A DNA stretch of 64,000 nt from Procambarus clarkii (Eukaryota > Arthropoda > Malacostraca > Decapoda > Cambaridae): positions 21,709,047 through 21,773,046 of the forward strand of contig NC_091193.1 of the NCBI RefSeq assembly GCF_040958095.1, in the 5' to 3' direction. Positions 8,927 to 44,443 of this stretch are shown here, in pieces (position 1 is the first letter of the stretch; every line of letters begins with the position of its first letter). The notes below the pieces were generated by a model, which saw nothing but the letters and a program-made list of their open reading frames with translations, made no database searches and was not told where the DNA came from. The position numbers were made by a program, and so were the translations under genes.

Positions 8927-11900
8927 CTAAAGCAAGAAAAATTGGGTTACTTTCAGCGAGTTAAAAAGATCAATATTTAAGAATTACTGTAGTTTTATGC
9001 CTTAATCGCTCTCTCACAGTACTAAGGCACACACAGCACAAAAAAAAAAAAAATACAAAAAAATACAAGTTACAACTTCGTGTCATCCTTTGCAGATGAC
9101 ACAAAAATCAGCGTGAAAATTACCTCTGCTGAAGACATTAAAAAATTACAAGCAGATATCAACAAAGTTTTTGACTGGCCAGCAGAAAATAACATGATGT
9201 TTAACAGTGATAAATTCCAGGTACGGCAAAAACGAGGATCTGAAACATAATACAGGGTACAAAACACAACTGAATCTGCCCATAGTAGGAAAACAGCATG
9301 TCAAGGATTTAGGAATAATGATGTCCGACGATCTAACGTTTACGGAGCATAACCAAGCAAATATTGCGTCAGCCAGAAAAACGATAGGATGGATTACAAA
9401 AACTTTCAAATCCATGGATCTAAACACAATGGTTGTACTCTTCAAGTCACTTGTGTTGTCAGCAGTAGAGATTGCTGAAATAGAGGGAATACAGAGAAAA
9501 TATACGACACACATAGCCGTGATAAAGGACCTAAATTATTGGGATTGGCTCAAAGCTCTCCAAATGAAAAAAAACTCACTAGAAGAAGACGCGAGAGATA
9601 CCAAATAATATACACATGGTAAATACTGGAGGGTCAGGTCCCAAATCCACATAGTAAAATAACAACGTACTGGAGTGAACGATATGGCAGAAAATGCAGG
9701 ATAGAACCAGTGAAGAGCAGGTGCGCCATAGGCACAATCAGAGAACACTGTATAAACATCAGAGGTCCGCAGTTGTTCAACGTCCTCCCTGCGACTATAA
9801 GAAATATTGCCGGAACAACCGTGGACATCAAGAGAAAACTAGACTTTTTCTAAAAGAAGTTCCGGACCAATGGGGCTGTGGCGGACCTGCGGGCCGCTCC
9901 AAGCAACAGCCTGGTGGACCAAACTCTCAAGTCAAGCCTGGCCTTGGGCTGGGCTTGGGAATAGAAGAACTCCCAGAACCCCATCAAGCAGATATCAAAC
10001 ATATTCTATGGTAGATGCCTTCCTGACTCTTGATGGTGGCAATGACACACTTAGGAAGTACAGTACACACATTTATGGGTCCTGATAGTAGAGTTGGGCT
10101 GTACTGTACTCACAATCCAGAATTCCAGGTTCAAATCCCAGGCAGAACAAATGTTTTGGCAAATTTTCTTTACCTAATACCTCTGTTCACCTAATACAAG
10201 TGCCCAGGAGTTAGCCTGTTTTGGCAATGCATCCTAGGAAGGATCAATAGTTTGACCTGGGGGTAGGGGGAGGGACCTTGATAGGCCTAATACATATACA
10301 AACACACAGGCTGCTTGTCCACTGACAAAATGATTTATTAGATACAAAATGGAAACCCTTATTGCAATTTGAGAGTTTGAAGTGTATAGGGAGAAATTAA
10401 CTTGTGTGATTATACATTATGATTTATATTCTTGACCAAATCATTAGTAAAAAAAGTTAATGGAATTTTGTAATAAAAGTTACTTACCAAACGAGATCTA
10501 CAAGACCTCCCTGTCGAGCAATTTCAGCTTTAACACGATTAGCAAAGTCAATTGAACTTTCGCCTTCTTTTCTTGTCATTGGAGGTAGATACCAAACATC
10601 ACACACAATGGCCCATGAGGTCATCATCATATAGATATAGCTCACCATAGAGTCTTTGGAAGAATTCCAAAATGCATCGCCAAATCTAGGATCATACTGA
10701 AATAAACACATATTACCGAGTAAAACAAAGTTTTCAAAACAATGAAATTAAGTACATATCCATACAATGTAATATCTTTACAACTAAAATAGGTTGTGTT
10801 ATTACTCAATACTCACTATATTTATACAACTATAATCTCATAGCTCAAAAATAATGAAAAATTAAAAAAATCAATGTTTACATTCAAACTTTATGATAAA
10901 TGTTGTAAAAGAAATTTAAGTTAGACATTCTTCCATTTGTAACTATCTATGAAATTTTAAGACAGAAAAACTGACACTTGTTGCCCCGGGCTGCTCTTGC
11001 AATTATAGCCTGCAACATGCCCAGGCACAAGAAATAAAAAAATAAATAAAAATTTGTCTTATAAAAGTGTTCATTTGTTTTCCTTGATTACCAGGAAAAA
11101 TAATAATAAAAAAAAAAAACAGGCGACATATTTTGGCTGCAATAGAGTCAAAAGTCTGGCAAAATTGAGGCGCTGACAGAGCAAGCGTCTAAGGTGATGC
11201 CCCCCCCCCCCCAAAAAACAAATCAATATAAAAGCATCTAGAAAAGACAGAGGGCTATTGATAGGAGCGCGCACACATACTAGACCGCTTTATCAACCAG
11301 AGCCTAACTCACCTTGATAGCAACAGGATATATGACCCCTCCAACTTCAAAAGTTCCTTTCTTGAACTGCATGACAGACGTGTTGTTGATGCACGTGCCT
11401 TCAGGAAATATTAAAATGGGAAGCTTTTCTGGATCTTCAACATGTTCTCTTAATCGTCTTGCTACTGCAAAGCGGTCTTTAGATTCTGAACGTTCAAACC
11501 AGATGTGTGCCGAGGCCCTTGATAAGGCTCTTTGGAAAATGCTCAAGAAACCCCCATGCCTCTGGCCCACCTAAGAAATTAATGCCATTAGTAATCAAAA
11601 TACATAAATGCACATTAAATCTACAAGTACTGTATATGATTATTTGAGCATTGCTCCAGATTAATAAGTTCACACTGATGTATACAACCTAAATGAGGAT
11701 ATTGTACCAAAAACAGTAAAACTACCTATTACTGTGCTTTCATTGGACAAGTTTTCTCTCACTGCTAATTCAAAAATTTAAATTAATTGAGCCCACAAAT
11801 TTGTAATAGTTTAGCATTTATGGTAACGTGTGTATATTGGCAAATTTATCTCCTTTTCTAAAAACTAAGTACAGGTATTAGCGTTCAAACTTTACTGTAT

Positions 11901-12254: not shown

Positions 12255-15200
12255 GATCTTCAACTCCTCCATTGAGCAGTGAATGACCCTGCAGGCCACA
12301 GCACTGACTATATTCAATAAAATTTTAACAACTGCAAGAGTTGGTGCTCCTTTCAGACTGTGCACTTAAGAGTGCACAGCATGAGCACAGTTCAAACTAC
12401 AACAGACTATTGGGAGTATTTCCTGGTATAGGGACAAGTCTAGAACTTTGGGTACAACTACACAGTTATAATGACCATGTGTTGGTAAGGCTCAATAATA
12501 CAATAATTTGGAATCTTGAGCCAATACCTTAAGAATTTATCCAGACACTCAAAACAAAAATTAGCCTTTCATAATGAAGGATACCTAAATATAGTTAGTT
12601 ATATAATAACAAATAAAACCCATACAAATTTAAGACACACATTCTAAAATACAGATCTCAAGACACCAAACAAAAGCCATCAATTCATTCCAATGTAAAT
12701 TTGATAAAATTTAAAAAAAAACAATGGAGGATCACAATGAAAATAATTAACTGGTACATGTCTAGATACTGCATACATGCCCAGGTTAAAATCTATCTTT
12801 AAATCATTCCTTTGATAGCAAAAATTCCTATTATAAACCTTCCTAGGGTAGCAGCTCTAAATGAGAACTGGGAGCTAAATCTCCCCTTACAATCGGGGCA
12901 TTTCTGTATAAATTTTGACCACACAAATTTTTAAAATACTGTATGGCTAGGCCCCCCAGCACCCTGGTATTAGAATAGTTTTAAAATAAAATAAGTCTAC
13001 ATGACCTAATAATACAGACGAGTCACAATAACGTGGCTGAAATATGTTGACCAAACCACACACTAGAAAGTGAAGGGACGACGACGTTTCAGTCCATCCT
13101 GGACCACAATCGAATCGAGAATGGTCCAGGACGGACCGAAACGTCGTCGTCCCTTCACTTTGTAGTGTGTGGTTTGGTCAACTAATAATACAGGCCTTCC
13201 GTTTACCATCATGCATAAATGTAGGAAGTTTCAAATACACAAACAATTCCTAGCAGGAATATCTAGCTCTTATTCACTTGCTAACATTATCAAGATACTG
13301 TATTACCAAACAATGAGCAGAGACCAATGGTTATGAGAAAGCTACCTACAAGAATGTTAAAATTAAGTACTTCTTAGCATGAATCAAGGCAGAGAGCATA
13401 AAATTTAAGAATATTCAATAATAGGTGGTAATTAAGGAAAGTTACAAAATCCACAAAAACAGTAAACAGTCAAACTGGTAACATACCATATCATATGTAT
13501 TGTCACACGCCAGTACCAACACATCAATGGGTGTGGTGTGGTTGGCAACACAGATACCACACTGAGGGATATTCTCTCTGTTGTGGTAAGTGCACACCAG
13601 TGACAGTGCCCCACTGAGAAAGTCAAAGCAGAAGACTGATATACAGCTGTTCAGGCTTTTCTTCATTTTGCTTTCAGGAAGACAACCCACGAAGTACGTA
13701 CACGCTACCATGACAACCATCTGCAAGACACGGCAAAGCCCCAGGTTCTATAGACAAGCATACCACAAATATATGTGCATCACAAGGTGGTGGTAACAAT
13801 ACTATGTACTAAAACAGGGCATACAGACAAGACTAACTCCAACACACACTACACACATTTGAGAAATCTAGAAATCTATGTATAAATTTGTAACATTCTA
13901 TGTACCATTTTACTACTGTACTCTATATACCATGCTACTTACTCCCACATTCAAAGGAATGAAATATTTATTTTTCTTTTGTTTTTGTACCTATATGACC
14001 TGCTCCAAAACTTTATTGCCCAAGTGTTAAATCACCATCAATAATGCCTGACATTTCTTATAGCCGTTAAGAAAATTTACATAAAATTATTCACTCAAAC
14101 TTACTAAAAATTACAACTGTAAGAGGTTATGATTTATCTCTGCAAAATGCTCAAGGTTGAGAAGAAGCAGAATAAAATATGAAAAAAAAAATTAAAAGCT
14201 ATATAGCCTGTAGTACAAATAGGGATCAAAATGGAAAATTAAAAAAAAAAAATATTGGGAGCAAGTTTCTTGGAAGCCAAAGCCAATCATGCCTACTGTA
14301 CCTTCCTTGGAAGTAACACAGAATTCAATACTGTACATTATAGCAAAATAGGCATGTTTAAAATTCAATTGGACTGCTAGGATACAATGTAACTAAATCT
14401 GTAGTTAAAATATATAAAATCATTGAATATATAATTCTAAAAAATTACTTTGTAACAGGTACATTTACCAAATTAAAACGCTGCCCAGAATATAGCTCTT
14501 GTTAGTTACATCTAAAGCACGTTATTAAAGTCTACCCTAAAGAATTTACAGACAATGGAGAAAAACTCCCATAATTATCAGAGGGAAGAACTTCTTTCAC
14601 TGCCAAAAATAGGAAAACAGCACCATACTGAATCAGAGCAATATATCAACACAGTTATGATCCACACCCTTGAACCCAGGGGGGAAAAAAGGAATGATCA
14701 ATTATTTCATCAAGCATCTCAACATGGTCACTGGCACCATTTGAGGGGAAGGGAAGGGGAGGGGGAGGAAGGGGAGGGGGGGGAAGGGGAGGGGGAGGAA
14801 GGGGAGGGGGGAAAGGGGGGGGGAGGGGGGAAAGGGGAGGGAGGGGAGGGAGGGGGGGAAAGGGGGGGGAGGGGGGAAAGGGGAGGGAGGGGGGGAAGGG
14901 GAGGGGGGGAAGGGGAGGGAGGGGAGGGGGAGGGAGGGGAGGGGGGGAGGGGGCTAGGTTTACAATCTTGGCTCAGATCAAAACCAGGAGGAGTCGGCCT
15001 CGAGGGGCCCAAGGACAACAAAGATTATTCCCAGAAAATGGACCACCATTTAATGTGGGTATTCCTTTGATAAAGGGCCTCACAAAGAGAAAGTGGGAAG
15101 AAATAAAAAAAAATGGGTAATATATCTAACAAAGGCCTTATGCAAATCAAGACTTATAAGGACTGGAAAATTTATGAACATGATTCAAAATTGTGTCCAA

Positions 15201-18200
15201 GAAGAATTCTTGGTGAATCCATACACTTGCTGGAAAAAAAAAAATTGGGTCTACAAGGTAAGGTAATTATCAAAAGAAGGCACCAAACCGGGAAGGCTAT
15301 GTAGCACCATCAAAGTGCGAAATAATCAGAGGGCGCTAAATATCACCAAGAATGCCAATACGAGAACAAAAACGCATAAGGCGAACGATATCAAAAGTAT
15401 GCGATTCACCTAGAATTTATCGAGGGACAAGTGACCGCGAGGGACGGTCGGAAAGCAAGACACACGCTCGTATTGGGTCTACAAGAATAAATGAAAAAAG
15501 TAGTTATCAAAAGAATGTGCCAAGCCTGGGGAAACTCTTTAGAACCATCGGTGAAATTAAGAAAAAAACTAATAATTACATCCAGCTACACTTATGAGTC
15601 TTCAAATACAATACTGTATAAGCAAATTCTTAAAATTAGGATAAATTTCCAGGAAATTTAAAAAGTTTCATATTAGTATAAAATATAGTACACATTTTTA
15701 CAAGAAGTTATTTCATCACAAGATGATACATGCTACTGTACTGTACTGTACTGTATTTTTTTACTTCAGTATAAACCCTACCTGAAAATTAAAGCTAATT
15801 TGGCCACAAAAGCATGAATTTAAAATCTGTAAAACTCTTTGGTGCCCAGAATGTAAACCTCCAATTTGTTAAAATTTAAAGATAATTTCTTAGGGTTCCT
15901 GGTTTATAGTTAAATGCATTCTGTCTGTTCCCTCTCATGAATATTGGCACTACATTTTCCTTTTTCCAGATTTCTCTGAGCAAAGTTTTAAGTAATTATA
16001 AAAAGACACCAAGCCAGGAAGGCCATGTAGCACCATGAGCAGTTCTAGTTAAAGGAATAAAACGATCCCTGCAACCTCTTTCAAAATCCCCACATCTGGT
16101 CTTGATGCTTTTATTAAACCCAATTCCTCTAGGGTTTCCTTTTATCTCTTCATCGACTTGTCTTGTGATGCTGCTCATTGTTTCTTATCCTTGGCCTTCA
16201 CTATGCTTGTTTCATAGAACTCGTGGAACCTTTTCTCAAGTTCCTCAATCACTTTGGACTTTCCATGAAGATGCTTCCTTACTTCCCAAACCAGACCACA
16301 TGATCTTATTGTGGTTTTCTTGTATGTGGCTGCAACAATTGTCAATGTTCTTAGTTTTTGTTGCCACTTCATTAGAAAATTACTACACCACTGCCCTTCT
16401 GACTGGTTTAGTTATTTCTTGTAATGATGGTGGTAGTATGGTGGTGAAATGGTGACAAGTGATAATTACCTATATGAACCAACACTAAAGCTGTAGCAGG
16501 TAAACGTTCTGGAAAGTTTTTCTCCACAAATGATGAGAATGAATCCATAAGCTTATAACTTCAATTAAGGGACCCAATGTGGGAAACTTACCAAAAATGT
16601 GCCTCATAAATTAGCAAGTTTTGTAACAGATCTAATTAGCATTAAATAAACAATACAATTTGTAAGCAATAAATACCTTGATACAAGATCAAACATTGGC
16701 TAAGGCCAATAAAATCAAGCAATTTGCCCAAGCTACAGTAACACATAGGGAGCACACACACATACTTTAACAGTGGTTCACCACACACACACACATACTG
16801 ACCAAGAACTACATTTGAATCAAATCTCAGACTAGATATTGTCCACATTATCCAATGAATTGTATACCACAAAAAAGACACTCATTAGAATAAAAATGTG
16901 CTGGAAAGACATTACAAGCAATAAATAATGGTTCTTGTGGCAATTAAATAAATACAGTACAACTGTTTAATAAGATTAACGCATGCTAGAGGATGTCCAC
17001 ATATGCAAAAATTTACTTAAAACATATGGGAAGGAAATGAAAGGTTAGGAATGTGTGGCTGTGAGGGAGTTTCAGGCATCCCTCCACACCAGCATTGCTA
17101 ACCATGTAAATTTGCCCAGGTATCTTATAGATTGTAGTATTAATAAACATTTGATTTCCCCTATCTCTTACATTATCTAGGATGATATGGTATAGGTACA
17201 TTTACCTGGCCAAGTTGAAAACATGGCTACGTAGCTATTTATATTTACTTTCATCCGAGGGGTCACCACCACCAGTAACTTCAAAGGGGACAGGAAGTCG
17301 GCGGCTTCTTAATGGTCCTCTCATTATTTACGATACAGGATTATGACAGGAATGGACAAAATTTAAAGAGGAATGTTTTGTATAATCTACAACAGCTAGA
17401 ATTAAAGGTCAGATTCAAAGAAAACAAAAGTGCCCACAAAATTTAAATAAATGAACTCTAGAAAATGGAAATATATTGATAGAATAATTGAAAAAGAACG
17501 AAAGGGCATTTATGAGAGGCCATCTATATACTGTAATAAGTAGTTAAGGCAACACCTTCTGGCATCTAGACCCAATCGACTGCCAAAAATGACTTTGGGA
17601 GCTCTAAAATTAAATCATTTAATTTATCAACGTCGATTGAAGCACTAGGATTTAAAAAGAGCGTACTGTATCAATGCATTGAGATAAATTTTAATTGCTA
17701 GAGCATTTAATTCCGTTTGATGGTTACAAATCTGAAAAGGAATGTCCTTTCGAACAAGAAAATTTATGTGTTGCTCTATTCGTTATGGCAATACAGAGCT
17801 ATAGGTTAAATGATTAAAATTAGAATTCATATCTTAAAAAAAAAGTTTCATTAAGGCATACAATATCTAAGCTCTTCCGTAGGCAAGATTGATTTTAACC
17901 CTGTGTAGATGTCACTTTGGAATTGTTCATCATCGTTTACATTAGAGGTTACATAGTTTGACCATTGCGGAGGAGTAATTCCTCAATGGCCATGCTAGTA
18001 CACATCACAGAGGCATTGTGACAGATTTTTTAAGTGGTTCTGATTCACTAGCTTTAATGGACAATAGTGTGTGCCATCTCTACTCATCCTCCATCATAAT
18101 ACAAGTCAATCGAAAGAATACTAAAGATTGGAAAAGTTGTCACGAAGTCTCATCCAGAAAGGAGAAGAGGGGGATAGGAAAAAAAATGGAGAAAGTTATC

Positions 18201-19248
18201 CAGCAAAATTAGTAATGAAGGTTGTAGGAGCACAGGGCTCAAAATGTTCAAAATGCTATCCCACTCAGCATCACACTCCAACACTCGTTCATTAAACCCC
18301 CTTCACACTTAGAACGGGCTGAATATTGAGGTAGGGAAATGAGAGGGTAGCGAATGGCAAACCATCAGAAGCTTCAAATTCACATGACATTACAGGAAAG
18401 ATAGGACACCAAAAGATGAGGGCAGTAATCAGAGACAATGTATCAGACTGGAAGAGTGTTACTAGCAGAGTACCACAGGGTTCAGTTCTTGCCTCAATAA
18501 TGTTCATCGTCTACATAAATGATCTACTAGAAGGAATACAGAATTACATAAACATGTTTGATGATGCTAAGATAATAGGAAAGATTGTGAGAAATCTTTA
18601 AAGCAGTCTGATAAAGAAAGATCTAGGGGTAGTTCTAGATAGAAAACTATCACCTGAGGATCACATTAAGAACATTGTGCGAGGAGTCTATGCTACACTT
18701 TCTAACTTTAGAATTGCTTTTAAATACATGGATGGTGAAATACTAAAGAAATTGTTCACGACTTTTGTTAGACCAAAGCTGGAATATGCAGCGGTTGTAT
18801 GGTGCCCATATCTTAAGAAGCACTTCAACAAACTGGAAAAGGTGCAAAGACATGCCACTATGTGGTTCCCAGAACTGAAGGATAAAAGCTATGAAGAGAG
18901 GTTAGAGGCATTAAATATGCCAAAGCTAGAAGACAGAAGAAAAAGGGGTGATATGATCACTATGTACAAAATAGTAACAGGAATTTATAAAATTGATAGG
19001 GACAATTTCCCATGACCTGGAACTTCAAGAACAAGAGGTCATAGATTTAAACTAAACAAAAGATGCTGAATATAAGAAAATTCACTTTTGCAGAGTGGTA
19101 GATGGTTGGAACAAGTTAGGTGAGAGGGTGGGAGACCAAAACCGTCGGTAGTTTCAAAGCGTTATATGACAGTGCTGGGAAGACGGGACACCACGAGCGT
19201 AGCTCTCATACTGTAACTACACTTAGGTAATAATTACATATACACACA

Positions 19249-19281
<33 letters not shown>

Positions 19282-22200
19282 GAGTGGTTACATTCATGTA
19301 CAGCCACTAGCACGCACAGCTTTATGGGCAGGTCCTTAATCCTAATTTTTCTCCAGAATACAACCCACTAAATCGTTTAATAACCAAGTACCCATTCACT
19401 GCTGGGTGAACAGAGGCTACAATTAAGGATTGGCACCCAGTCAATCTACCCTGGCCAGGATACAAACCCAGGCCAAAGTACTTGAAGTGCCAAGCAAGTG
19501 TCTTACCAGTGCACCACGGGGACTGCATTACTAAAACATGGACATGTCTATTTGAGCCTGATGGCACAATACCACAACTGAAAGTAGTAATAGCTTATGG
19601 AGAATGAGGAAAAGTGAATTGTTATTAAGTGCAATTAGAGGCAACAGCAACAAAGTGTAAGACACACACTTTTACTAGGTGAGTACACTTTACGAAGTAT
19701 TCCTGTCACTATTCCTGTAATTGGGTAGTTATAAATAGGAGCTGCCTCGTATGGGCCAATAGGCCTTCTGCAGTTACCTTTGTTATTATGAATACATAAG
19801 AACATAAAATGCACGCGCTATAGGCCTAGCGAGGAATGAACAATTGTTATATTTAAGCTTCACTCCATATATTTGTACTATACTGGTTTAATTCATTATC
19901 AATCACAATAATGTGAAGCAGCTCAGCAAAGCATTAACTCTGAAAATTTAGTCAATTGGTATTATCAGCTGTTGTCAAACGTTGCTTAGAAGTATTAAGG
20001 CATTACCAGACAAACGTGTTAGAAGACATGTAAACAGAAACCATTAAAGACACACATCAAAATATACAGCCCCTTACTGCCAACATGAACAGAGAATTTC
20101 AAAAGCAAGTTTATGCCAAACAAGATGGAAAGTATGTCAACTAACATATGAGTAACAGTTGTCACATGCTAACACTACAATATCAACTGGTGTAGTATGA
20201 TTGGCTACACATATTCCATCTGATTGTGGCCTATTGTGGCGGTTGTGGTAGGTTATCACGCAACTGAACCCACGAGCTATGATTCGAAAAGATGAAAGGA
20301 AGATGCATCTGCTCATCCGACGTTTGATTTCGTCATCAGGAATTATCCCAAGTATATACGTCATGGACACCATCTGCGCAACCTAAAAAATTAAGGATGA
20401 ACATACATATATAAAATATGCCTCATGATAAAGCTCAACACTTTTCTATTTCATCTCCAACTTATATGCCATTAACTAATTTTACTGAAAATAAAAACAC
20501 CAACATGGTTTCAAAAATCCAGACCCATTATAGGTTTCCACAAACTCCAACTTGAAAAACCTTGGATTTGTAACATTTCAGTACATTTTGGTGGCATTTC
20601 TCTTGCCAAAATGCTTTACACCTTTTTACATACAAAATTTACACATGTATAAACATAAATGTTAAAATATAATATATTTAATACAAATTTAAATCTGTAC
20701 TTGCCATTTAGTGAACCACATTTATCTTTGTAAACTTACCAAATTTGACCCTGTGTATTTTCCTAACTTTCTTTGCCAAAAGAAAATTTTCAGGCAATTA
20801 GCTTGACTGAAAATGCACTCTTAGGCTAAACACACTGACACTTTAAACAGTGTCAGTGCCAAAACCACCCTCTTCACTTCCCGGCCTTGGTCACATTTCT
20901 ACGTCAATTGAACACTTGTCCAAAACTCCTTTTCTGTTCTCTGCCTAGTCTAGCCAGACTACTACTGCTAGGAGACATCATTCCTACTTATAAATGAAGC
21001 AGTAACCAGAATAAAATGCATCAAAATCCCTCGAGTAATGAGACTGACTGCAAGTACACGGGGAAATTTACACAGCTGGGACTGGTCTGCTCCCTGTCGG
21101 ATAGATTGGGCCCTACACAGTCACAGTCTACTGAATGTACTGTATTGTATAAATTTGCAAACAAGACTATAAAACCAAAACAATTTTTCTAGTACCATAT
21201 ACTTTACTCGAATGGTAATTTTTTCTTTTAATGTTGAAATATTCAATTATCTTGTACATAACTAATTATGTTGGATTGAGTTAATTATATAACTAGGTAT
21301 GGATTTTTGAGACCACACTAGTTTTAATATGTACTTCTATTACTTTTGCGTGCCTAGTCAAGCGACTAATGTATTACAGGATATTAGTTACAAAAATTGT
21401 AATTAAAAAATATAATACTACATAAATATAAGCAATGCCATATAACATTACTGTGCCATAAACTGAAAAGTTCATCAAGTAATTCTAGGTGTCGAGTGAA
21501 CACACGCTCCCTCAATTATGAACACTAAGGCTGAGTACTGGAACCATTCATTACTCACTACTATTATGTCATGTAATCCTTTAGTCTTCACCAAATTTCC
21601 ACATATTACAATTTATTAACCAAAATGTCATGTCATTTAACAGTAACTACTCATCCAAAATAAAATAATGACATACAAACTGTCCAGCAAAATATTAGCC
21701 CAGTGTACTACAGTCATCTATTAATAAATATAATTAAAACAAATCAATTATCAAAACCATACAACTGTTCCCTATGCGAAGGATGAGAACACTCAACCCA
21801 GAGTTGATCATCACACTTTACTACCAATTACTGTATTTCATCATCTACAACACATGACATTTTTCTTTTTATACAGTCCTCAAAGGCAATCTATTGCACT
21901 TCAGGCATTGCCTCTAACACAGACTCATCATGCATGTTACCTTTTATTTTGTACATTTCCAAATCAGTTTACGAACTGGATACCAAAGCATTATTGGAGT
22001 ACATCTTTTTCAAAATACCAGAACTGTACATATTTAGAAAATTTATGACACTAACACATTTTGGTTAAGGTATTTAAAGATCCATTAACAACACACAGAG
22101 AGCAAGAACTTCTGCACTGCTCCAGTCACTTGTCGCTGCTCTCTGCATCACACCAACCACAAATTTTATGACAAAATTTGTCAAAATGTTGAAATCGTGC

Positions 22201-25200
22201 AAAACACTATCGATTCAATATATAGTACTAGCAAAATAAATGTTACTTACCCCAATGACCAGAATGAGAATGCGAAGTGGTAAAAGAAGGAAATAGCGTA
22301 GAATAAAACCCACTACCCAGAATATGGTTAGACGAACACTGATGAATTCATATTGGCAATTTGTTCGCGTCAAAAAGTTCCACGACTGAAAAAATAGAAA
22401 ACAAAATTTATTAATTAATTGACTACATCATCATATTAACATGGAGCATGCATGTAGATACACACACACACACCAACTGATTAATGTTAATCTGACAAAA
22501 AAAAATCTGTTAATTTATTCAGATTACTGTACAGTACTTGAAAATTTGTGTTACCAGAATCTGAATTGAATTGTGGATGTATTTTATATTTTATATTCTC
22601 CAACAAGAAAATTTAAAATTTAAGTATAACTCCTTATCCAAATTTCTGGAACTTATGTTCACACTGTATGGTTATTTAATATGAAATTCTGTGTTGTACA
22701 GGTGTATATCCAAGTACAGTACAGTACTTGAATTTTGTTTTTAACTGTTGCAAAGAAGAATTGTTCTCAAAGAGTTGAAGGTAATTTTTTTTAATGCACA
22801 ACTTAAAAAATTTAGTTAGTTCACTATTTTACTGTATTTCTCATTCACATTCTAGATCTGTAGTTCTTAAAAAAATTTTCCTATTCTTTCCCACTGAAGC
22901 TGCCAAACTGTTCTTGCACTCCATTTCGTGAATGATAACGGAATATACTGTATTGTCATGGGAATACACAGAATCAACAAGTGTGTGCATGTGTGTGTGG
23001 TGGGGTGTGTGCACACGTGCATCCATGTGTAATTACCCTAGTGTAGTTACAGGATAAGAGCTATGCTAGTGGTGCCCATCCTCCCAGAATTGCCATGAAA
23101 ATTTTCAGAACAAAGAACCCAAAGTTATTCGTGCTCCAAATGTTCACTGCTGAACACTAATCAAAATGTGAGCTTACAAGATTTCAGGTGAATGGGAATC
23201 CAGAATAAACTCAATTTTTTTCACTTTTGGACATTCTAGATAAAATTTTTGCTAATGTCTGGCTAACTCTTTGGAGTATGGGCCCATATGATTTGGATTA
23301 GCAAGCATAGACAGTATGGTATTGGTGAATGAAGAAAAATACAAATAATGGCCTTAACAATACGTTGAATGACTTTCTTGGTATGAAGGTGCTCCATGGG
23401 GGAAAAAAAATTAAGAATTTTATGTACAGTATATCATTTGATTAACACTAGCCATAGATATCAAATCTTGGTAATTAATGAGATTTATAAGCAAAACCTA
23501 ATTTTCTTAAATTTCTGGTAAAAATGTCATACGAGATAAGCCCTTGTTAAGGAAGAATAGAGTATAATTGCTCAAGTGATTTAGTTCTTAAAAGTTGAGA
23601 AAATGCATACATTAATGTCTTGTTATTTTTACCAGTGGGGTCAACTGTATCACTAGTTACTATTTTGGTCCTCTCTCTCCAGTAATAAAGTCCACCAATC
23701 TCAATTCTAACTTCTACAGACTACCAAGTAATATACGTCCTGTTAAGGATGTAATAAGACCTCCTGTTAAGGAATTCATTAGAGAACTGCCTCAAATTAA
23801 AATCCTTTAATGATCTCTCATTTGAGATTTAACTTTTCTTATACCTTCTAGTTACATACACCTGTTTACTTGTTTTTCCCCCTGCTCTAATAGTCCCCAC
23901 GAGATTTTTCCCAGTCACTCAAATAGCAACACAAACTTACCGTAAGTTCCTCAGCAGAGAACCTTTTAGTAACCTCATCGTCCACAATAGCCTCCATACC
24001 GGTACGAATATAGTCAAGGCAGTCGCCCAATTCAAAATCGTGTGTAGCCAGACCATCATCACTGTCCTGTTAAAATTAACAACTATTTTCTATATTTTAC
24101 ATATAAATTTAAACAATAAATGCCTGATAATTACAGCACTGGTACCTCAAACTTCTATCTCTGAGTTACATTTTAAAGCTAATTTGTGGTGGTTACAGTT
24201 GAATTACATATAAATGCATTAACAACCTTTTCTAACTTCTATTAAACTGTCAATGATAGACCACTAAAAGGTGTATAGTATAGCTATGTCACAATCACCT
24301 GATCCTTAATGCTAATGTCAGATCCAGTCTACACCTAGTGAGGTAGATATTACAGTAACAGGAGCAGATATGTGGCACTGCTTGGTGCCAGTGATTACCA
24401 TGTTAATGTAATTTCATAGTCAGGCTGAAAGGAGAGAGTAAAATGCATGTTCAGATGGAAATAGAACTAATGGGAGGGAAATGGGAATCTTTCCAAGAAG
24501 TCCAATTTGTTACAATCCACAGTAGCAAGGGTAGTATTTTTCAGGTGCGAGTTCAAATGTCCCATGATTGAAGTGAATGAAATGAAATTTAAATGGGCAG
24601 TGAGCTAGATGGAATGACAAAATTAAACAAGTACACAAGATAGTAAATGCACAAAGGCTACAAAAAAGTATACATCACTCAGACAAGTAGAAGAGAAAAG
24701 CTAGATTAATTCATGGTTCAACAAAAAGTTAGAAGGCCAAGAGCAGAAACAATGAGATTCTGAATAAATACAAGCAAGTGTACAGATGAAAATCCTTAAG
24801 CACTAAGAAAGGTCAGATATAAGTACACTATGATCAGGATGAGAATGCAGATAATGAAAGAGGCAGCAATCATAAGAAACCCTCCAGCTAGGGTTACATA
24901 ATGTAACTTTATGAAGAATTCCCAGAAAAATAGACTGCAACCATGGTGCACTTCTTCCTGCAAATATATTAAAATTAATTTTGACTGGCAGATAGAGGGA
25001 GAGATACAACACTCGCTACTACTTGGCCACAAGCCAAGCTGATAAGTATTACTTAAGTCAACTAGTTCTGATAGTGCTGAAGGTCAAATGTTGCCTGACA
25101 GCCAACAGTACTTATATGTATCTACTTGACTTATTTATTTATTTATATATAAAAAAAAGTTCTTACATGCTTGTAAAGCCATTAGCATGCATAGCATTTC

Positions 25201-28959: not shown

Positions 28960-31900
28960 GCACCTGGCATTTTGATTTTCCTATACCCAAAAAATGTTAT
29001 TGTCATAAAAAGTTACTCTAAAAGAGGTGCAAACATAAATGTAAAGCCTGCCAAGTTGCGTCATAATCTAAAAAAAAAAAAAAATTAAAACTCAAGTGAA
29101 AACAAACCGAAATGGAAACTCTAAAAGTTGTCGTTTTGAGATTTGAATTTTCCAGCCAATAATGCTGCATCAAATTTTCAACGATATCAGTTTTAATTAT
29201 ATAACTTACCTGGTACCGGTAATTTGTAAATACTTTCCAATGATTCACTTGTTAATCTGAATATATTTTATGTTTTCATAAGTGGAAAAAAAAAAAAATA
29301 TACAAGTTGACAACTTTTTATTTATTTTCTTGTGACTAAAAAGCCAAAGTAAAATCATTAGAGTTGGCCGATTTCTTCAAACTCAAGTTGTAGCTAATAA
29401 CCAAGGCCCCTTTACGACCAAAGTTCATTTACGTAAATTTATGGAGATAATAAAATAAATCTCTAAAGAATGGAGTAACTTAGGCTATTTCTACGCACAT
29501 CTATTTAAGATCCCCAAAAAGGACTAAAGTCCATACATTACACAAATATTAATATTATGCATGTCACATTCCAATAGTAATCACATGGTATGCTGAGAGA
29601 TCTCTTATTGATTATGCTGCACCTGTCATTTCTTGTTTTGGTGAAGGTAGACTAAAGAAGTTGGAGAAGGTACAAAATGAAGCTAATGAAAATATTCTTA
29701 GAATGCCCAAGAAAGACTATGATTGAGATAATGAGGATGGAATTCAACTTTCAGAGTACAGGTATTGGCCGCAATTCTGGTCATAATAGAGGTTAAAGTA
29801 GTCATCGGCATAGGGCTGAACTTCAGAGATAGTGTATTTTCTTTCATTCATTTTATTCTAACATTCCTATATTCATAGGTGTTATGTATACTCTATTATA
29901 AATACAGAGTGGAACATCGGCAATCAAACAATTGCTTCCAGACGGCCATTCACGTACCGATCTGTTCAAGTACCGCATAATTTTTCCCACAGGAATACAG
30001 TAATGTAAATTGGATTAATCTGTTCAAGATTGGAACAAATACACACATGAATATAATAAATTAATTCAATAAATGCAAACATCCTCATTTTAATTACACC
30101 TTAGTCGAGCATGGCCCTAGGTCAGACTCAGGAAGTAGAAAAACTCCCAGAACTCTCTTCGTCTCCAGGAAGTTGATGCGAATTGATGGTGTATATGGAA
30201 GGTGACGAGGAAGAGGAGGAGAAGTTATTGTTTGGCAGGCAGGGGAGTTATGAATACTACAGGTAATTGTGCTTCTGAGGTTCACTTTTGTTTCTATCTT
30301 TTTTTTTTATTTCCCTTTAGTGACTCACCAGATGCTTTTCTTACAAGAAACTTGTCCAATGATATTTGAGGAAAGAACACACAGGCACCACTTTCACATT
30401 TTGCTATGCGTTCTTTTTTTCACCTCTATCATAGTTCTAACTAACTTTCTTTTCACTTGGCTCTTATTGTCTTAGGTGCCATAGTGGCTTATATACACTA
30501 AGAATATAACAAATATCCACAAAAACATGAGAAAGTCTGCAGAGAAGTTTAGTGGGGTATACACCGAACAACAGCTACTAGGAACTAACTGGACTGTTAC
30601 ATATGTTTATGTTCGAGTGTCGAGCAAACGGTTGACTACCGAGCACAAACAGCATTTGAGTGTCAAATTTTTCAAGCTGGGAGCCATTCGAGTACCGAGG
30701 TTCCTCTCTACTCCTTTGTTTTTGTATATCTTCTCAAGAGAATTCATTTACATTGACAATTTATAGTTATAACCCAACAAATACTGTAACCTAGAAAACT
30801 TAAAATGTTTATGATCATTTTCACATTGCTGAGAAGCATGTGAGCAGCCCAATTAGCTTAGATCAGGAACATTTGGGGAAGGCTGGACTGCCAAAGTAAT
30901 AATATATTAAAACAATTTTGTTAATTTCCCTGCTTTCCATTGGTAGAAATTAAGACTGCAGAGAAGAAAACAGCCAGAATATCTCATAACTCACTTTGTC
31001 TAGCTGAGGCCTCAGGACAAGCTTATCTCTGCATATCACTTGTGTGGATTCCTGGTCATCGTCATCGTCATCATCCGTCTCTTCACTGTGCCTCCCATAC
31101 TCTTTTGCAAGTCGTTGCCGACCAAACTAGAAAATAAACAATACTTCATGTATTCTAAAAAACGTATCCTGGAAAAATACAATACAAAATCTATAAGAGA
31201 GTAATAAAACACAGTTAATGATACAAATGCATACCCAGTGGGATGTGTCCCAGTGTGATTCTGTACATCAAAGCAAGCTCCTCACCTGGTAAGCCCCTTC
31301 CCCAGGGTGACCAATTCCGGCAAAGCCACACTCCCAGGGTCACCCTACCCGGCAAAGCCCCTCCCCCCAACCTGGGTCACCCCTCACGGCAAAGCCAATC
31401 CCCCCCCCCTCCCCAGGGTTACATCTGGCAAAGCCACCACTTCCCCTTAGTGTCACCCCTCCCAACAAACCTTCCCCCTTTAGTGTCAACCCTTCTGGAA
31501 AAGCCCTCCAAGGCACACACTTATAACTTTTATCAAGAGAGACAACAACGGCACTTTCCTGCACTGTGGGAGATTACACCCTTTCCAATTTTAATCCCTT
31601 CCATTTCACCTAACAAACAAATTAGAGATCGGCCCAAGCATCACCTTGAAGCAAAGCTCAACGTCGTAAGCCATATCGATGCTCTGTCAACGGAGCATTC
31701 TCTCTAAAATCATATACACTGATGGTTCCCTACACAGCCCCACGAGTGCAGCTGGAAGTGCAGTTGTCGTGACAATGGGCGATGGCTTATATTTTGAGTG
31801 GGGAGTCCGTATAAACAAGTGGCCCTCAACCCTTCAGACCAAACTATTTGCCTTGCTTCTTGCACTGAAATGTGTACAAGTTTCCAAACTTGATACATTA

Positions 31901-41438: not shown

Positions 41439-44400
41439 CTTCAATTTGTTTTAAATCTTGTCATTGAGAGTTCTTGCAACTCTGAATACAAAGGTGTTGC
41501 AAGTAGCAGGTCATCCAAGAACTCTTAGACACTTATCACCTAGAAGTTATCAACCTTGTCCTTGGTTATTACAGGAGGAGGCAGGAACCCTCCCATCACT
41601 ATAAACCCCCCCCATGAAGTATACAGAGGGGAGCCGTGTGCGCACCAGTGTCTGAGCATGGATGTAAACACAGGGATAAACTGGCACTGGGTTGACAATG
41701 TGGAATTCATTAGCTTCATTACCTGACAGAACAGGACAAATTTTGATGGATTTAAGTTAGTCAAGGATTTAAGACTTACTTCACTACATTTTTTATACAG
41801 TATTTGGGGGATAGACTTGAGGAGGAAGCACAGTTGCTTGACCAGCAGAATACCCTGCTGACATAGCTACCTAGGTTTCCAATATTGGACAAGGCCTTTG
41901 TCCCTCATATTTACACACAAGGTACAATGGGTTGTGAAAGCACCTATGTTGGTGATTAAGTGATACAGTATTGTATAATCTTTCAAAAATGTTAACATGC
42001 ACAATATTTTAGGGACATTTAATACTCTCCTATGCTAAAGATAATTATTTTTCCATATACTGTACTGTATCTTTTGCAGTCCTGGGGGCAGCTACAGATA
42101 TCCACTCCTGATAATGAGAGCAGAGATGTTCCAAGTACTGTAGTAAGACCCCCGTGTGTTTGGGCTGGCTACACCAGATGTGCCACACCACATTTAGCCC
42201 TCCAATAAGTGGCACGAGTGGCACTGGGGGGGGCAAGAGTGGCATTGGGGGGGCATGAGTGGCACAGGGGGGGGGGGGCAAGAGTGGCACTGGGGGGGGC
42301 ATGAGTGGCACTGGGGGGAAGCACGAGTGGCACTGGGGGGAAGCACGAGTGGCACTGGGGGGGCACGAGTGGCACTGGGGGGCCACGAGTGGCACTGGGG
42401 GGCCACGAGTGGCACTGGGGGGCCACGAGTGGCACTGGGGGGCCACGAGTGGCACTGGGGGGCCACGAGTGGCACTGGGGGGCCACGAGTGGCACTGGGG
42501 GGCCACGAGTGGCACTGGGGGGCCACGAGTGGCACTGGGGGGCCACGAGTGGCACTGGGGGGCCACGAGTGGCACTGGGGGGCCACGAGTGGCACTGGGG
42601 GGGGGCCACGAGTGGCACTGGGGGGGGGCCACGAGTGGCACTGGGGGGCCACGAGTGGCACTGGGGGGGGCCACGAGTGGCACTGGGGGGGCCACGAGTG
42701 GCACTGGGGGGGGCACGAGTGGCACTGGGGGGGGGCACGAGTGGCACTGGGGGGGGCACGAGTGGCACTGGGGGGGGCAAGAGTGGCACTGGGGGGGGGG
42801 GGTAAGAGTGGCACTGGGGGGGGGGGCAAGAGTGGCACTGGGGGGGGGCAAGAGTGGCACTGGGGGGGGCAAGAGTGGCACTGGGGGGGGCAAGAGTGGC
42901 ACTGGGGGGGCAAGAGTGGCACTGGGGGGGAGCAAGAGTGGCACTGGGGGGGAGCAAGAGTGGCACTGGGGGGGAGCAAGAGTGGCACTGGGGGGGAAGC
43001 ACGAGTGGCACTGGGGGGGAAGCACGAGTGGCACTGGGGGGGAAGCACGAGTGGCACTGGGGGGGAAGCACGAGTGGCACTGGGGGGAAGCACGAGTGGC
43101 ACTGGGGGGGAAGCACGAGTGGCACTGGGGGGGAAGCATGAGTGGCACTGGGGGTAAGCATGAGTGGCACTGGGGGCACGATTGGCACTGGGGGAGGCAC
43201 GATTGGCACTGGGGGGGGCACAAGTGGCACTGGGGGGGGGCACGAGTGGCACTGGGGGGCACGAGTGGCACTGGGGAGGGGGGGCACAAGTGGCACTGGG
43301 GAGGGGGGGCACAAGTGGCACTGGGGAGGGGGGGGGCACAAGTGGCACTGGGGAGGGGGAGGCACAAGTGGCACTGGGGAGGGGGGCACGAGTGGCACTG
43401 GGGAGGGGGGCACGAGTGGCACTGGGGAGGGGGGCACGAGTGGCACTGGGGAGGGGGGCACGAGTGGCACTGGGGAGGGGGGCACGAGTGGCACTGGGGA
43501 GGGGGGCACGAGTGGCACTGGGGAGGGGGGCACGAGTGGCACTGGGGAGGGGGGGCACGAGTGGCACTGGGGAGGGGGGCACAAGTGGCACTGGGGAGGG
43601 GGGCACAAGTGGCACTGGGGAGGGGGGCACGAGTGGCACTGGGGAGGGGGGGCACGAGTGGCACTGGGGAGGGGGGGCACGAGTGGCACTGGGGAGGGGG
43701 GGCACAAGTGGCACTGGGGAGGGGGGGCACAGTGTCATGAGGACAGTGATACGTGTATGTCACAAACATGTGCCACAAGTCATGACTCATTGTAGGTGGG
43801 GGAGGGGGGGGAGAGGCCCCCAGGTCACACCTGTCGCCACCACCACCCAGGGGGAGGGGGGAGAGGCCCCCAGGTCACCACCATCACCCAGGGGAAGGGG
43901 GAGCAGCCCCCCAGGTCACCACCATCACCCAGGGGAACGGGGAGCAGCCCCCAGGTCACCACCATCACCCAGGGGAAGGGGGAGCAGCCCCCAGGTCACC
44001 ACCATCACCCAGGGGAAGGGGGAGCAGCCCCCAGGTCACCACCATCACCCAGGGGAAGGGGGAGCAGCCCCCAGGTCACCACCATCACCCAGGGGAAGGG
44101 GGAGCAGCCCCCCAGGTCACCATCATCACCCAGGGGAAGGGGGGAGCAGCCCCAGGTCACCACCATCACCCAGGGGAAGGGGGAGCAGCCCCCCAGGTCA
44201 CCACCATCACCCAGGGGAAGGGAGAGCAGCCCCCCAGGTCACCACCATCACCCACAGGGTGGTGACGGGGGAGGCCACGAAAACACTCACCTCAAACACC
44301 TTCAGCAGAAACTGGACGTATTTCTGGCGCAGCCCCAGCGACTTGCCGAGGCTGGCCAGCACCAGCACCGTCACCAGGACCACCAGGAAGGGCGTGAGGA

Positions 44401-44443
44401 GCACAGTGAGGGCGAGCGTGGCGAGGGCGTCCAGGAGCGCCAT
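8803..44443 (-). CDS. GPAT4: Glycerol-3-phosphate acyltransferase 3/4-like gene (complete coding region, 8 coding positions, one duplicated)
   Basis: Family role: ER-membrane enzyme that transfers an acyl group from acyl-CoA to sn-glycerol-3-phosphate, giving lysophosphatidic acid, the first step of glycerolipid and triacylglycerol synthesis. Seen: exons at 44,291-44,443; 30,995-31,126; 23,941-24,066; 22,251-22,385; then 20,146-20,382 or 13,487-13,720; then 11,313-11,570; 10,488-10,696; 8,803-8,926. Every intron is GT-AG and phases agree (all 0 except phase 2 between the last two exons). The product is 456 residues (457 with the upstream exon 5), matching the usual GPAT4 length. Order: N-terminal hydrophobic segment (about 4-33), DEVTKRFSAEEL motif (about 124-135), second hydrophobic segment (about 157-182), motif I NHTTPID (catalytic H243, D248), WFERSE (284-289), FPEGTC (315-320), VIYPVAIK (339-346). 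GPAT3 and GPAT4 are not separable here; the symbol is by overall resemblance. Introns are rich in transposon debris. Confidence 0.95.
9058..10015 (+). mobile_element. LINE fragment (RT C-terminal region), in GPAT4 last intron
   Basis: Reads KHVKDLGIMMSDDLTFTEHN, ARKTIGWITKTFKSMDLNTM and WLKALQMKKNSLEEDARD, then in another frame a C-terminal block around FLKEVPDQWGCGGP. This is the post-RT part of a LINE, with frameshifts. It is antisense to GPAT4. The C-terminal part corresponds to the same family as 38.27-38.60 kb. Confidence 0.8.
10095..10300 (+). mobile_element. tRNA-derived SINE (second family)
   Basis: B box GGTTCAAATCC at 10,128-10,138 followed by the body TCTGTTCACCTAATAC, CCAGGAGTTAG, TTTGACCTGGGGG and GACCTTGATAGGCCTAA. 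This is a layout I recognise from decapod SINEs. It is diverged and inactive. Confidence 0.75.
10488..10696 (-). CDS. GPAT4: GPAT4 coding exon 7
   Basis: 69 codons plus two bases. Acceptor TTTATTTCAG, donor GTAAGT. The peptide runs YDPRFGDAFWNSSK, MMTSWAIVCDVWYLPPMT and FANRVKAEIARQGGLVDLV, all conserved in GPAT3/4. The split Trp codon is completed by the first base of the next exon. Confidence 0.97.
11313..11570 (-). CDS. GPAT4: GPAT4 coding exon 6 (motifs II-IV)
   Basis: 86 codons, phase 0. Acceptor TTTCTTAG, donor GTGAGT. It starts VGQRHGGFLS, then WFERSESKDR (glycerol-3-phosphate binding block in this family), LPILIFPEGTCINNTS (motif III) and VIYPVAIK (motif IV). It is the strongest single diagnostic exon of the gene. 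Confidence 0.97.
12211..12252. repeat. (AC)n microsatellite
   Basis: Uninterrupted 42-base AC dinucleotide run in the GPAT4 intron between exons 5b and 6. Confidence 0.95.
13017..13190. mobile_element. Foldback (hairpin) element, copy 1
   Basis: A near-perfect inverted repeat spans 13,046-13,182: GTTGACCAAACCACACACTA ... TAGTGTGTGGTTTGGTCAAC, arms of about 65 bases around a short AT-rich centre. It carries the block GGACCGAAACGTCGTCGTCC. The left flank GAGTCACAATAACGTGGCTG is the reverse complement of flanks at copies 2 and 3, so the element is longer than the hairpin. No coding capacity. Confidence 0.85.
13487..13720 (-). CDS. GPAT4: GPAT4 alternative exon 5b (downstream copy, motif I)
   Basis: 78 codons, phase 0 at both ends. 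Acceptor GTCTTGCAG, donor GTATGT. It carries TYHNREN, GICVANHTTPID and LACDN, with H and D of the acyltransferase box intact (H243, D248 in this isoform). It aligns end to end with the upstream exon at 20,146-20,382. Most differences lie in the N-terminal half, which is membrane-proximal, while the catalytic stretch is nearly the same. Both lengths are multiples of three, so choosing either keeps the frame. Confidence 0.92.
14743..14953. repeat. 211-bp pure purine (G/A) tract
   Basis: Every base is G or A on the plus strand, made of GGGGA, GGGAA and GGAGG variants. In the GPAT4 transcript (minus strand) this is a pure C/U tract, about 1 kb before the acceptor of exon 5b. The open frames crossing it are artefacts. 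Confidence 0.95.
15255..15590 (+). repeat. Dispersed repeat family R, copy 1
   Basis: Shares an extended match with 39,090-39,300: AGGCACCAAACCGGGAAGGC / TATGTAGCACCATCAAAG, AATATCACCAAGAATGCCAATA, ATCGAGGGACAAGTGACCGC. Shorter echoes lie at 15,500-15,550 and 15,999-16,040. The aligned stretches read as similar peptides in both copies, but stops break them. Confidence 0.6.
15600..18400. other. Intronic AT-rich sequence (between exons 5a and 5b)
   Basis: No gene recognised. 15,999-16,040 carries a short piece of repeat family R. At 16,100-16,400 the minus strand has an unrecognised degenerate coding-like stretch (KWQQKLRTLTIVAATYKKTT) that may be transposon-derived. An actg-rich run lies at about 15,735-15,755. 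Confidence 0.4.
18410..19235 (+). mobile_element. LINE fragment (RT C-terminal half and 3' end), in GPAT4 intron
   Basis: Reads RVPQGSVLASIMFIVYINDL (RT motif), MFDDAKIIGKI in place of the catalytic FADD block, then YATLSNFRIAFKYMDGEILK, RPKLEYAAVVWCPYLKK and SYEERLEALNMPKLEDRRKR. The 3' tail runs GTAGCTCTCATACTGTAACT, ACACTTAGGTAAT. Stops and internal deletion show it is inactive. Same family as 33.1 and 45.3-46.3 kb. Confidence 0.88.
19236..19281. repeat. (AC)n microsatellite
   Basis: Interrupted AC run directly after the LINE tail and before the SINE on the other strand. Confidence 0.9.
19282..19530 (-). mobile_element. tRNA-derived SINE (third family)
   Basis: On the minus strand a tRNA-like head (GTGGTGCACTGGTAAGACAC ... 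GGTTTGTATCC) is followed by CTGTTCACCCAGCAGTGAAT and the 3' end GGATTAAGGACCTGCCC ... GTGCTAGTGGCTGTACATGA. Partial copies lie at 25,160-25,268 (-), 28,410-28,530 (+), 46,385-46,470 (+) and 47,755-47,812 (-). Confidence 0.7.
20146..20382 (-). CDS. GPAT4: GPAT4 alternative exon 5a (upstream copy, motif I)
   Basis: 79 codons, phase 0 at both ends. Acceptor TTTTTTAG, donor GTTAGT (weaker than consensus). It carries TYHNRHNRPQSDGICVANHT followed by TPVD, so the H-x4-D acyltransferase box is intact. It is the same protein segment as the exon at 13,487-13,720, with about 38 of 78 positions identical by eye, no stop and no frameshift. Only one such segment fits the 456-residue family architecture, so the two are probably used alternatively. 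A second AG nine bases downstream (GCGCAG) could also act as acceptor, but the TTTTTTAG site gives the better length match. Confidence 0.88.
20383..22250. other. GPAT4 intron 4, nothing recognised
   Basis: AT-rich; no repeat family or coding signal identified apart from short homopolymers. Confidence 0.5.
22251..22385 (-). CDS. GPAT4: GPAT4 coding exon 4 (membrane segment)
   Basis: Residues 138-182 (45 codons, phase 0). Acceptor TTTTTTCAG, donor GTAAGT. It starts SWNFLTRTN, the usual continuation of the SAEEL motif, and runs into the hydrophobic stretch FWVVGFILRYFLLLPLRILI, a membrane helix ahead of the catalytic domain. Confidence 0.95.
22386..23940. other. GPAT4 intron 3 with a LINE 3' tail
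   Basis: Mostly unremarkable AT-rich sequence. At 23,030-23,080 there is a minus-strand LINE 3' tail (reverse complement of TAGTGTAGTTACAGGATAAG), the same tail as at 19.2 and 33.12 kb. Confidence 0.5.
23941..24066 (-). CDS. GPAT4: GPAT4 coding exon 3
   Basis: Residues 96-137 (42 codons, phase 0). Acceptor TTTTAACAG, donor GTAAGT. It carries GMEAIVDDEVTKRFSAEELT, one of the most conserved N-terminal stretches of GPAT3/GPAT4, so the call is strong despite the small size. Confidence 0.95.
25160..25268 (-). mobile_element. SINE (third family) 3' fragment
   Basis: The reverse complement shares GGATTAAGGACCTATCC and GCTATGCATGCTAATGGCTT with the family at 19.3 kb. Confidence 0.6.
27651..27737. 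repeat. Short tandem repeat (26 bp x 3)
   Basis: AGTAACCCTGGGCAAATGGC followed by AGGGGG is repeated three times. The array abuts a foldback half-element at its right side. Confidence 0.85.
27738..27832. mobile_element. Foldback element, copy 2 (right arm only)
   Basis: Begins in GGACCGAAACGTCGTCGTCC, continues TTCACCTTCTAGTGTGTGGT, CTGGTCAACATACTTTAGCC and ACGTTATTGTGACTCATCGC. The left arm is missing and replaced by the tandem repeat. Confidence 0.75.
28410..28530 (+). mobile_element. SINE (third family) internal fragment
   Basis: Matches the 19.3 kb copy in reverse orientation over GATTGGTGCCCAGTC and CTGCTGGGTGAAC blocks. Confidence 0.5.
28932..28959. repeat. Poly(A) run
   Basis: About 27 consecutive A on the plus strand in GPAT4 intron 2. 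Confidence 0.9.
29590..29830 (+). mobile_element. LINE RT C-terminal fragment (RNase H-bearing type)
   Basis: Reads SLIDYAAPVISCFGEGRLKK then LEKVQNEANENILRMPKKDY, the post-RT block found in LINEs that also carry an RNase H domain. Stops break it. Confidence 0.6.
29905..30714. mobile_element. Putative TIR element (MITE/pogo derivative)
   Basis: Left end GGAACATCGGCAATCAAAC and the reverse complement of the right end, GGAACCTCGGTACTCGAATG, are imperfect terminal inverted repeats, and both continue into a TGGCTCCCAG-like stretch. The interior has no transposase. Confidence 0.5.
30995..31126 (-). CDS. GPAT4: GPAT4 coding exon 2
   Basis: Residues 52-95 (44 codons, phase 0 at both ends). Acceptor TTTTCTAG, donor GTGAGT. 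The peptide starts FGRQRLAKEYGRH and contains a run of seven Asp residues after EET. This matches the poorly conserved cytosolic linker between the first membrane segment and the DEVTKRFSAEEL region. The acidic run is likely lineage-specific. The assignment rests on phase, splice sites and the total length reaching the family norm, since the linker itself is weakly conserved. Confidence 0.85.
31280..31510. repeat. Degenerate C-rich tandem repeat
   Basis: Repeated GGCAAAGCC and GTCACCC blocks every 25-35 bases. It creates a proline-rich open frame that is not a credible protein. Confidence 0.6.
31520..32822 (+). mobile_element. LINE fragment with RNase H domain and 3' tail, in GPAT4 intron 1
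   Basis: Frame-shifted pieces: QQRHFPALWEITPFPILIPS, then IYTDGSLHSPTSAAGSAVVV (RNase H first Asp motif), QTKLFALLLALKCVQVSKLD, and ADELAKESAFKG (RNase H C-terminal motif). The 3' end GCATAATAAATGAACTAAAC recurs at 49,470-49,490. Inactive. Confidence 0.8.
33120..33640 (-). mobile_element. LINE 3' fragment (same family as 18.4 and 45.3 kb)
   Basis: The minus strand carries the decayed post-RT block (KLEKGAKTCY, YEERLEVLYAKT-like) and the tail ending at 33,120-33,160 that gives CCTGTAACTACACTTTGGCA. No intact frame. Confidence 0.75.
33703..33787. repeat. 21-bp tandem repeat, 4 copies
   Basis: TCACAATATTACAATAGCAT plus G repeated four times without change, so recent. Confidence 0.95.
33790..38260. 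other. GPAT4 intron 1 sequence, nothing recognised
   Basis: About 4.5 kb AT-rich. A short ORF at 36,319-36,501 has a weak resemblance to a transposase N-terminus (IEQKEFIEIVKNG) but is not called. Confidence 0.5.
38270..39045 (-). mobile_element. Internally deleted LINE (endonuclease and RT C-terminus)
   Basis: On the minus strand 39,040-38,760 reads SDFNLRHLKWK, QQIVDPTRKENALDFIFTNN and DELNRN, the C-terminal part of an exonuclease-endonuclease-phosphatase domain. 38,600-38,270 holds the antisense of a post-RT block whose relative is at 9.06-10.0 kb. The RT core is missing. Confidence 0.75.
39088..39305 (+). repeat. Dispersed repeat family R, copy 2
   Basis: Matches 15,255-15,470 over most of its length (GGCACCAGGCCAGGGAGACT, ATGTAGTACCATCAAAG, TCGAGGGACAAGTGACAGC). 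It lies between two LINE pieces. Confidence 0.65.
39310..40085 (-). mobile_element. LINE RNase H fragment
   Basis: The minus strand reads DSHNALMALKSFNPIHPVVV, KIQHWQFISSRFKTVKFC, a stop, then VPSHIGISLNEHADAAAKEA and LRIVHTRLTRGHLMEHCPAP. This is an RNase H domain and downstream zinc-finger-like tail of an R1/I-type LINE. A TGA interrupts the FCxVPSH motif at about 39,674, and a frame change follows at about 39,510. Confidence 0.85.
41397..41433. repeat. Poly(A) run
   Basis: About 37 consecutive A. A short AATCCC repeat (five units) lies at 41,200-41,227. Confidence 0.9.
42208..43735. repeat. G-rich minisatellite, about 20-23-bp unit
   Basis: Unit GGCACGAGTGGCACT followed by 5-12 G, roughly 70 copies. 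Unit variants are grouped: GGCCACGAG units at 42,380-42,600, GGGGCAAGAG at 42,780-42,980, GGGAAGCACGAG at 43,000-43,130 and GGGGAGGGGGGCACGAG at 43,260-43,730. It lies in GPAT4 intron 1, about 550 bp from exon 1. The long open frames on both strands are by-products. Confidence 0.97.
43812..44263. repeat. 40-bp minisatellite, about 11 copies
   Basis: Unit GGAGCAGCCCCCAGGTCACC / ACCATCACCCAGGGGAAGGG. It ends about 28 bp from the GPAT4 exon 1 donor site. Confidence 0.97.
44291..44443 (-). CDS. GPAT4: GPAT4 coding exon 1 (start codon)
   Basis: Encodes residues 1-51, starting MALLDALATL and ending LLKVFE, followed by the donor GTGAGT. Residues 4-33 are almost all Leu, Val, Ala and Thr, so this is a membrane segment or signal anchor. 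The start is chosen because the next upstream in-frame codons contain no ATG before an in-frame TAG at 44,525-44,527, and the ATG has a G at -3 and at +4. The exon is GC-rich, unlike the AT-rich remainder of the gene. It lies between a 40-bp minisatellite (intron side) and a 21-bp minisatellite (upstream side). Confidence 0.9.

Follow-up and report, generated by a model that had tools for sequence, protein, structure and literature searches.

A putative pair of alternative exons for the hairpin and active-site segment of a GPAT3/4-type acyltransferase gene in Procambarus clarkii

Enzymes of the GPAT type make lysophosphatidic acid, the first step towards triacylglycerol and membrane lipids, and the locus analysed here raises the question of whether one gene can supply such an enzyme in two versions through a choice between two homologous exons. 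The window, that is, the whole stretch of 64,000 nt of Procambarus clarkii DNA under analysis, contains on its minus strand an apparently complete GPAT3/4-type gene that runs from 44,443 to 8,803 and carries two versions, A and B, of one coding exon (Table 1). From the sequence evidence, we consider it probable, at about 0.8, that A and B form an ancient tandem-duplicated pair whose members are spliced as alternatives, giving e4-A-e6 or e4-B-e6. Actual splicing and its exclusivity, the regulation, the differences in enzyme and targeting and the direction of the history are all matters that we infer from DNA.

Table 1. Coding exons of the acyltransferase gene and the intron between the two alternative exons (window coordinates)
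Feature	Position	Strand	Remarks
e1	44291..44443	-	51 codons, ATG at 44443, donor gtgagt
e2	30995..31126	-	44 codons, phase 0/0, borders ag/gtgagt
e3	23941..24066	-	42 codons, phase 0/0
e4	22251..22385	-	45 codons; hairpin hydrophobic stretch 1 and start of stretch 2
alternative exon A	20146..20382	-	79 codons; end of hydrophobic stretch 2, linker, H-x4-D
A-B intron	13721..20145	-	6,425 nt
alternative exon B	13487..13720	-	78 codons; second version of A's segment
e6	11313..11570	-	86 codons, contains FPEGTCINN
e7	10488..10696	-	coding; 3' end falls within a Trp codon
e8 (last exon), coding part up to stop codon	8803..8926	-	

The gene probably encodes a GPAT3/4-type sn-glycerol-3-phosphate acyltransferase. 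Its predicted protein matches the Pfam Acyltransferase family (PF01553) with 92.5 bits in the A form and 93.0 bits in the B form, at a cut-off of 23, and it contains NHTTP[VI]D (H-x4-D) in both A and B as well as FPEGTCINN in e6; H-x4-D and FPEG are marks that we take to be those of the GPAT3/4-type family. The constant part is identical in 167 of 258 positions to a human GPAT4 row entered by hand, and over the constant region the identity amounts to 65% with that row, compared to 62% and 52% with two paralogues (C67 and C26, described below). Exon e4 is 67% identical to its counterpart in C67, and e1 gives a weak match to the start of the same paralogue (37.5% over 32 residues). A PDB search with isoform A brought up no solved relative; its only match, to a consensus TPR protein (E 0.017), was dropped. 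Viral and bacterial collections searched with e6 alone gave no useful relative (0 of 6 candidate stretches in one search and 1 of 137 in another); the match to e6 on one bacterial contig (L001) was taken as chance, the 7 listed frames of at least 100 aa nearby being, by eye, without acyltransferase.

Some features of the noncoding sequence are recorded in passing. The A-B intron contains a long C/T-rich low-complexity tract (minus strand) at ∼14740-14955. A near-perfect palindrome occupies window positions 13046-13182, 305 nt downstream of exon B, with 68-nt arms that are 91% complementary and a loop of 1 nt; it looks like a fold-back mobile element, and similar letters were seen by eye near 27,760.

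The features by which mutually exclusive exons may be recognised were taken from the excerpt of PMC3228551 used here, and they comprise a length difference of at most 20 aa (A and B encode 79 and 78 aa), compatible reading frames and splice sites (both exons are phase 0/0, with AG before and GT after), homology (38 of the 78 aligned residues are identical, BLASTP E = 4e-28, a likeness that is thus not due to chance) and a position between the same internal neighbours (both lie between e4 and e6, on the same strand). On the fly X chromosome, according to the same excerpt, there are 16,180 exons without an annotation as mutually exclusive, and only 90 of these (in 6 of 1,705 genes) have the features of such pairs. 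The architectural part of what the first-pass annotation had proposed, namely mutually exclusive exons, therefore stands on every feature that sequence can address, and the proposal as a whole is supported in part. The identity of A and B is distributed unevenly, amounting to 11 of 40 residues for the membrane-proximal part and to 27 of 38 for the catalytic one. NHTTP[VI]D is kept in both, preceded by RPQSDG in one version and by IPQ-CG in the other, B being one residue shorter there. Among the linker residues, six are basic and three acidic in A, against three and two, respectively, in B. The same annotation had placed the two exons where Table 1 has them, in phase 0 and with splice sites, which are GT-AG in both cases; it had described them as about half identical and one codon apart, with IPQ-C in place of RPQSD ahead of a shared H-x4-D and with differences mainly in the membrane-proximal half, and the aligned translations bear this out.

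Each choice of A or B leads to a full-length predicted enzyme with nearly equal Pfam score. The protein would have 457 aa with A, 456 with B, 535 with both and 378 with neither, and the frame is kept in all four combinations. It was right, then, to say that exactly one of the two exons is needed to arrive at ∼456 residues, and equally that frame loss is unable to enforce the exclusion. At the nucleotide level, A and B share 0.66 of codon positions 1 and 2 and 0.28 of third positions. With synonymous sites saturated and the protein kept, the duplication is old and both copies were constrained; the saturation is also the reason why no dN/dS ratio is given. Within the window, tblastn with A and B found no third copy of the pair (other rows at E 1.1 or worse), and tblastn with all exons found no further copies of any of them (other rows at E 0.016 or worse).

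A search of the 4.03-Gb assembly with A, B and e6 gave clear matches at three loci, the window gene (on C44) and two further GPAT3/4-type genes, C67 (L004/L009-L010) and C26 (L006/L012). These counts are lower bounds, additional rows having E values between 0.099 and 9.8; among the matches listed, the A-type segment occurs at 1 locus and the B-type segment at all 3. Both paralogues have one segment of this kind and it is B-type: it shares the one-codon deletion with B and has Asp (column 33), Ser or Gly (37), Val (29) and Phe (34) where A and two human rows, entered by hand, have Arg, Arg, Leu and Ile, respectively. Within the 30 kb that were read at each of C67 and C26, the A query matched only the B-type segment; an 8-residue row for A in C26, at E 2.0, was taken as chance. 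In C67, the equivalents of e1-e4 and the B-type segment occupy one 258-aa stop-to-stop frame, with no introns and no A, so that the 5' part of this gene resembles a B-isoform mRNA. The next intron follows directly after the B-type segment, at the same M|VGQ border as in the window gene, and the other intron positions of C67 and C26 differ from those of the window gene. Since its 3' part keeps or gained introns, C67 is not a plain retrocopy. The equivalents of e4 and B are contained within one exon in C26 as well, and those of e1 and e2 were not found within the 30 kb read there. Given that e1-e4 are joined to a B-type segment and e6 as a lasting coding unit in a paralogue, there is indirect evidence, whichever way the history ran, that B substitutes for A.

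The relationship of the segments was analysed in an unrooted tree of 79 columns and six rows, of which the two human ones were entered by hand. It separates B, C67 and C26 from A and the two human rows with support of 95/93 (90/92 under LG+G4, a simpler model). Topologies constrained to have A and B together, or B and the human rows together, received p-AU values of 0.046 and 0.027, respectively. An initial view of A as ancestral and B as derived was dropped: in plain identity the two are equally close to the human rows (33/79 with each row for A; 34/78 and 35/78 for B), the branch of B is shorter than that of A, and either copy may be the nearer to the ancestor. Most probably, to judge from these sequences, a B-bearing form of the gene gave rise to the two separate B-type genes. 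The simplest history would have A and B arise by duplication inside the window gene, and a B-only copy, its 5' part perhaps derived from B-isoform mRNA, found C67 and C26. A broader interpretation, which we offer tentatively and hold to be somewhat doubtful in its entirety, is that the pair constitutes a conserved arthropod switch of the GPAT4 lipid-droplet hairpin and acyl pocket, with B released in the stand-alone enzymes C67 and C26, at least one of them via spliced B-isoform mRNA, hence a passage from splice form to separate genes.

When the eight donors of the gene are scored with a general matrix, entered by hand, the lowest value is that of A (TAT|GTTAGT, -0.36) and the second lowest that of B (ATG|GTATGT, 3.45), the other six ranging from 4.97 to 8.22. 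Of the 2,378 GT sites across the span of the gene, 281 (11.8%) score at least as well as the A donor, which is weak enough that A may be little used. The acceptor of B has 11 pyrimidines in 16 positions, compared to 9 to 14 at the remaining acceptors.

These properties bear on how A and B might otherwise be explained. The weak donor of A would suit a situation in which one exon is dying, this species using a single one and the other being an open-frame relic; yet both frames are intact, amino acid change is limited in the face of saturated synonymous change, H-x4-D is kept in both and the Pfam scores are alike, and we regard a relic as improbable. We attach as little weight to the idea that B has a promoter to itself and acts as an alternative first exon, in which case a shorter enzyme would start in hydrophobic stretch 2. 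An ATG is indeed the first codon of B, directly after the acceptor AG, but the acceptor itself is within the pyrimidine range of the gene, B aligns gap-free with A and C67 from codon 1 until the one-codon gap is reached, and the B-type segment of C67 continues from e4 unbroken. That the gene normally makes the 535- and 378-aa proteins, both exons being included or freely skipped, is compatible with a frame kept in every combination; the larger product would however carry the membrane segment and the catalytic motif twice, against a single such segment in each paralogue, and this possibility appears the most remote of those considered.

A different origin of B, with the splicing mechanism unaltered, has a better claim, although we think it unlikely: B could have been captured from an older B-type gene of the C67/C26 line. 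The clustering of B with C67 and C26 agrees with such a transfer, and the root of the tree, unprovable with these rows, may allow for it. It would nonetheless require that one exon with fitting splice sites entered the right intron. Neither C67 nor C26 has an intron at the e4/B border, and with the equivalents of e4 and B in one exon, these genes could not have donated the acceptor. Duplication within the window gene is retained as the simplest origin.

How the exclusion of one exon by the other might be achieved was considered from the gene structure. At 6,425 nt, the A-B intron is too long for steric exclusion; frame-based exclusion is ruled out, with double inclusion and skipping both in frame, and minor-spliceosome incompatibility is ruled out on inspection of the exon borders. 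Exclusion through an RNA docking structure was explored in 18 site-intron pairs of the one species. The best match was an inverted pair, 13,751-13,775 (just upstream of B) with 19,866-19,890 (downstream of A), at 20/25. This score was reached by 0 of 200 shuffles but by 26 of 600 real control 60-mers of the window and, given these controls and the 18 comparisons made, the pair was rejected, which leaves a docking structure without support. The choice between A and B would be made by regulated splicing factors, according to tissue or stage, acting on two weak donors; a regulated choice of this kind, as opposed to hard-wired exclusion, is the most likely mode.

GPAT4 moves from the ER to lipid droplets, and its isolated hairpin does likewise. 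In the predicted enzyme, the swap would replace the second half of hydrophobic stretch 2, the linker and the residues just before H-x4-D, leaving the motif itself and the remaining enzyme unchanged. The junction of e4 with A or B falls after residue 182. The hairpin of Drosophila GPAT4 (CG3209), an enzyme of the same type, is used as the lipid-droplet probe LiveDrop and comprises aa 160-216, and the excerpts of PMC5035145 and PMC9481466 consulted make no mention of alternative halves. If the numbering is comparable, the junction lies within 160-216, and the swap would consequently alter part of the hairpin. It is plausible from the sequence that A and B differ in lipid-droplet targeting or acyl-CoA choice. 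Fly CG3209 (dGPAT4) also figures, with its exon 4, in a table drawn from exons with developmentally varying inclusion, where it stands in the 'top regulators' column of one module with the type of event unstated (PMC4603746, in the portion used here); the likeness is at the level of the gene only.

The closest precedent is found in ACSL1/ACSL6, likewise enzymes of lipid metabolism, in which a mutually exclusive exon pair swaps the fatty-acid Gate at the active site and for which the authors note that Gate versions are separate genes in some organisms and products of splicing in others (PMC1543647, as excerpted). Differences are that ACSL1/ACSL6 belong to another enzyme family, that a slightly different motif of 26 residues is exchanged and that cDNA shows the splicing, whereas A and B are known from DNA alone. 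Tandem-duplicated exons of arthropods, in the partial accounts consulted for Mhc, N-cadherin and Dscam1, resemble A and B in that homologous neighbouring exons serve as alternatives; in contrast to these, A and B belong to a metabolic enzyme and form a single pair, predicted from DNA, whose members stand 6.4 kb apart and for which no docking structure was found. Judged by titles and abstract openings, none of the papers listed for this subject describes mutually exclusive exons in a GPAT. Exon swapping as such is already known; in a GPAT-type enzyme it is apparently undescribed, and the B-type paralogues add to its interest. If our reading of A and B as alternatives is true, one gene would give two enzyme versions that differ in their hairpin/active-site halves and are otherwise identical, so that targeting and acyl-CoA choice would become testable through comparison of the isoforms, with the B-type paralogues as further instances of the B version.

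Elsewhere in the 4.03-Gb assembly, the crustacean-neurohormone family PF01147 has nine matches over cut-off, compared to none in 14 control genomes, a distribution that fits a crustacean; 7 of the 9 run across a stop codon. Five of the matches are located within ∼56 kb (C37:10181571-10237901; L020, L021), four of them equal in score, and they likely represent a gene cluster.
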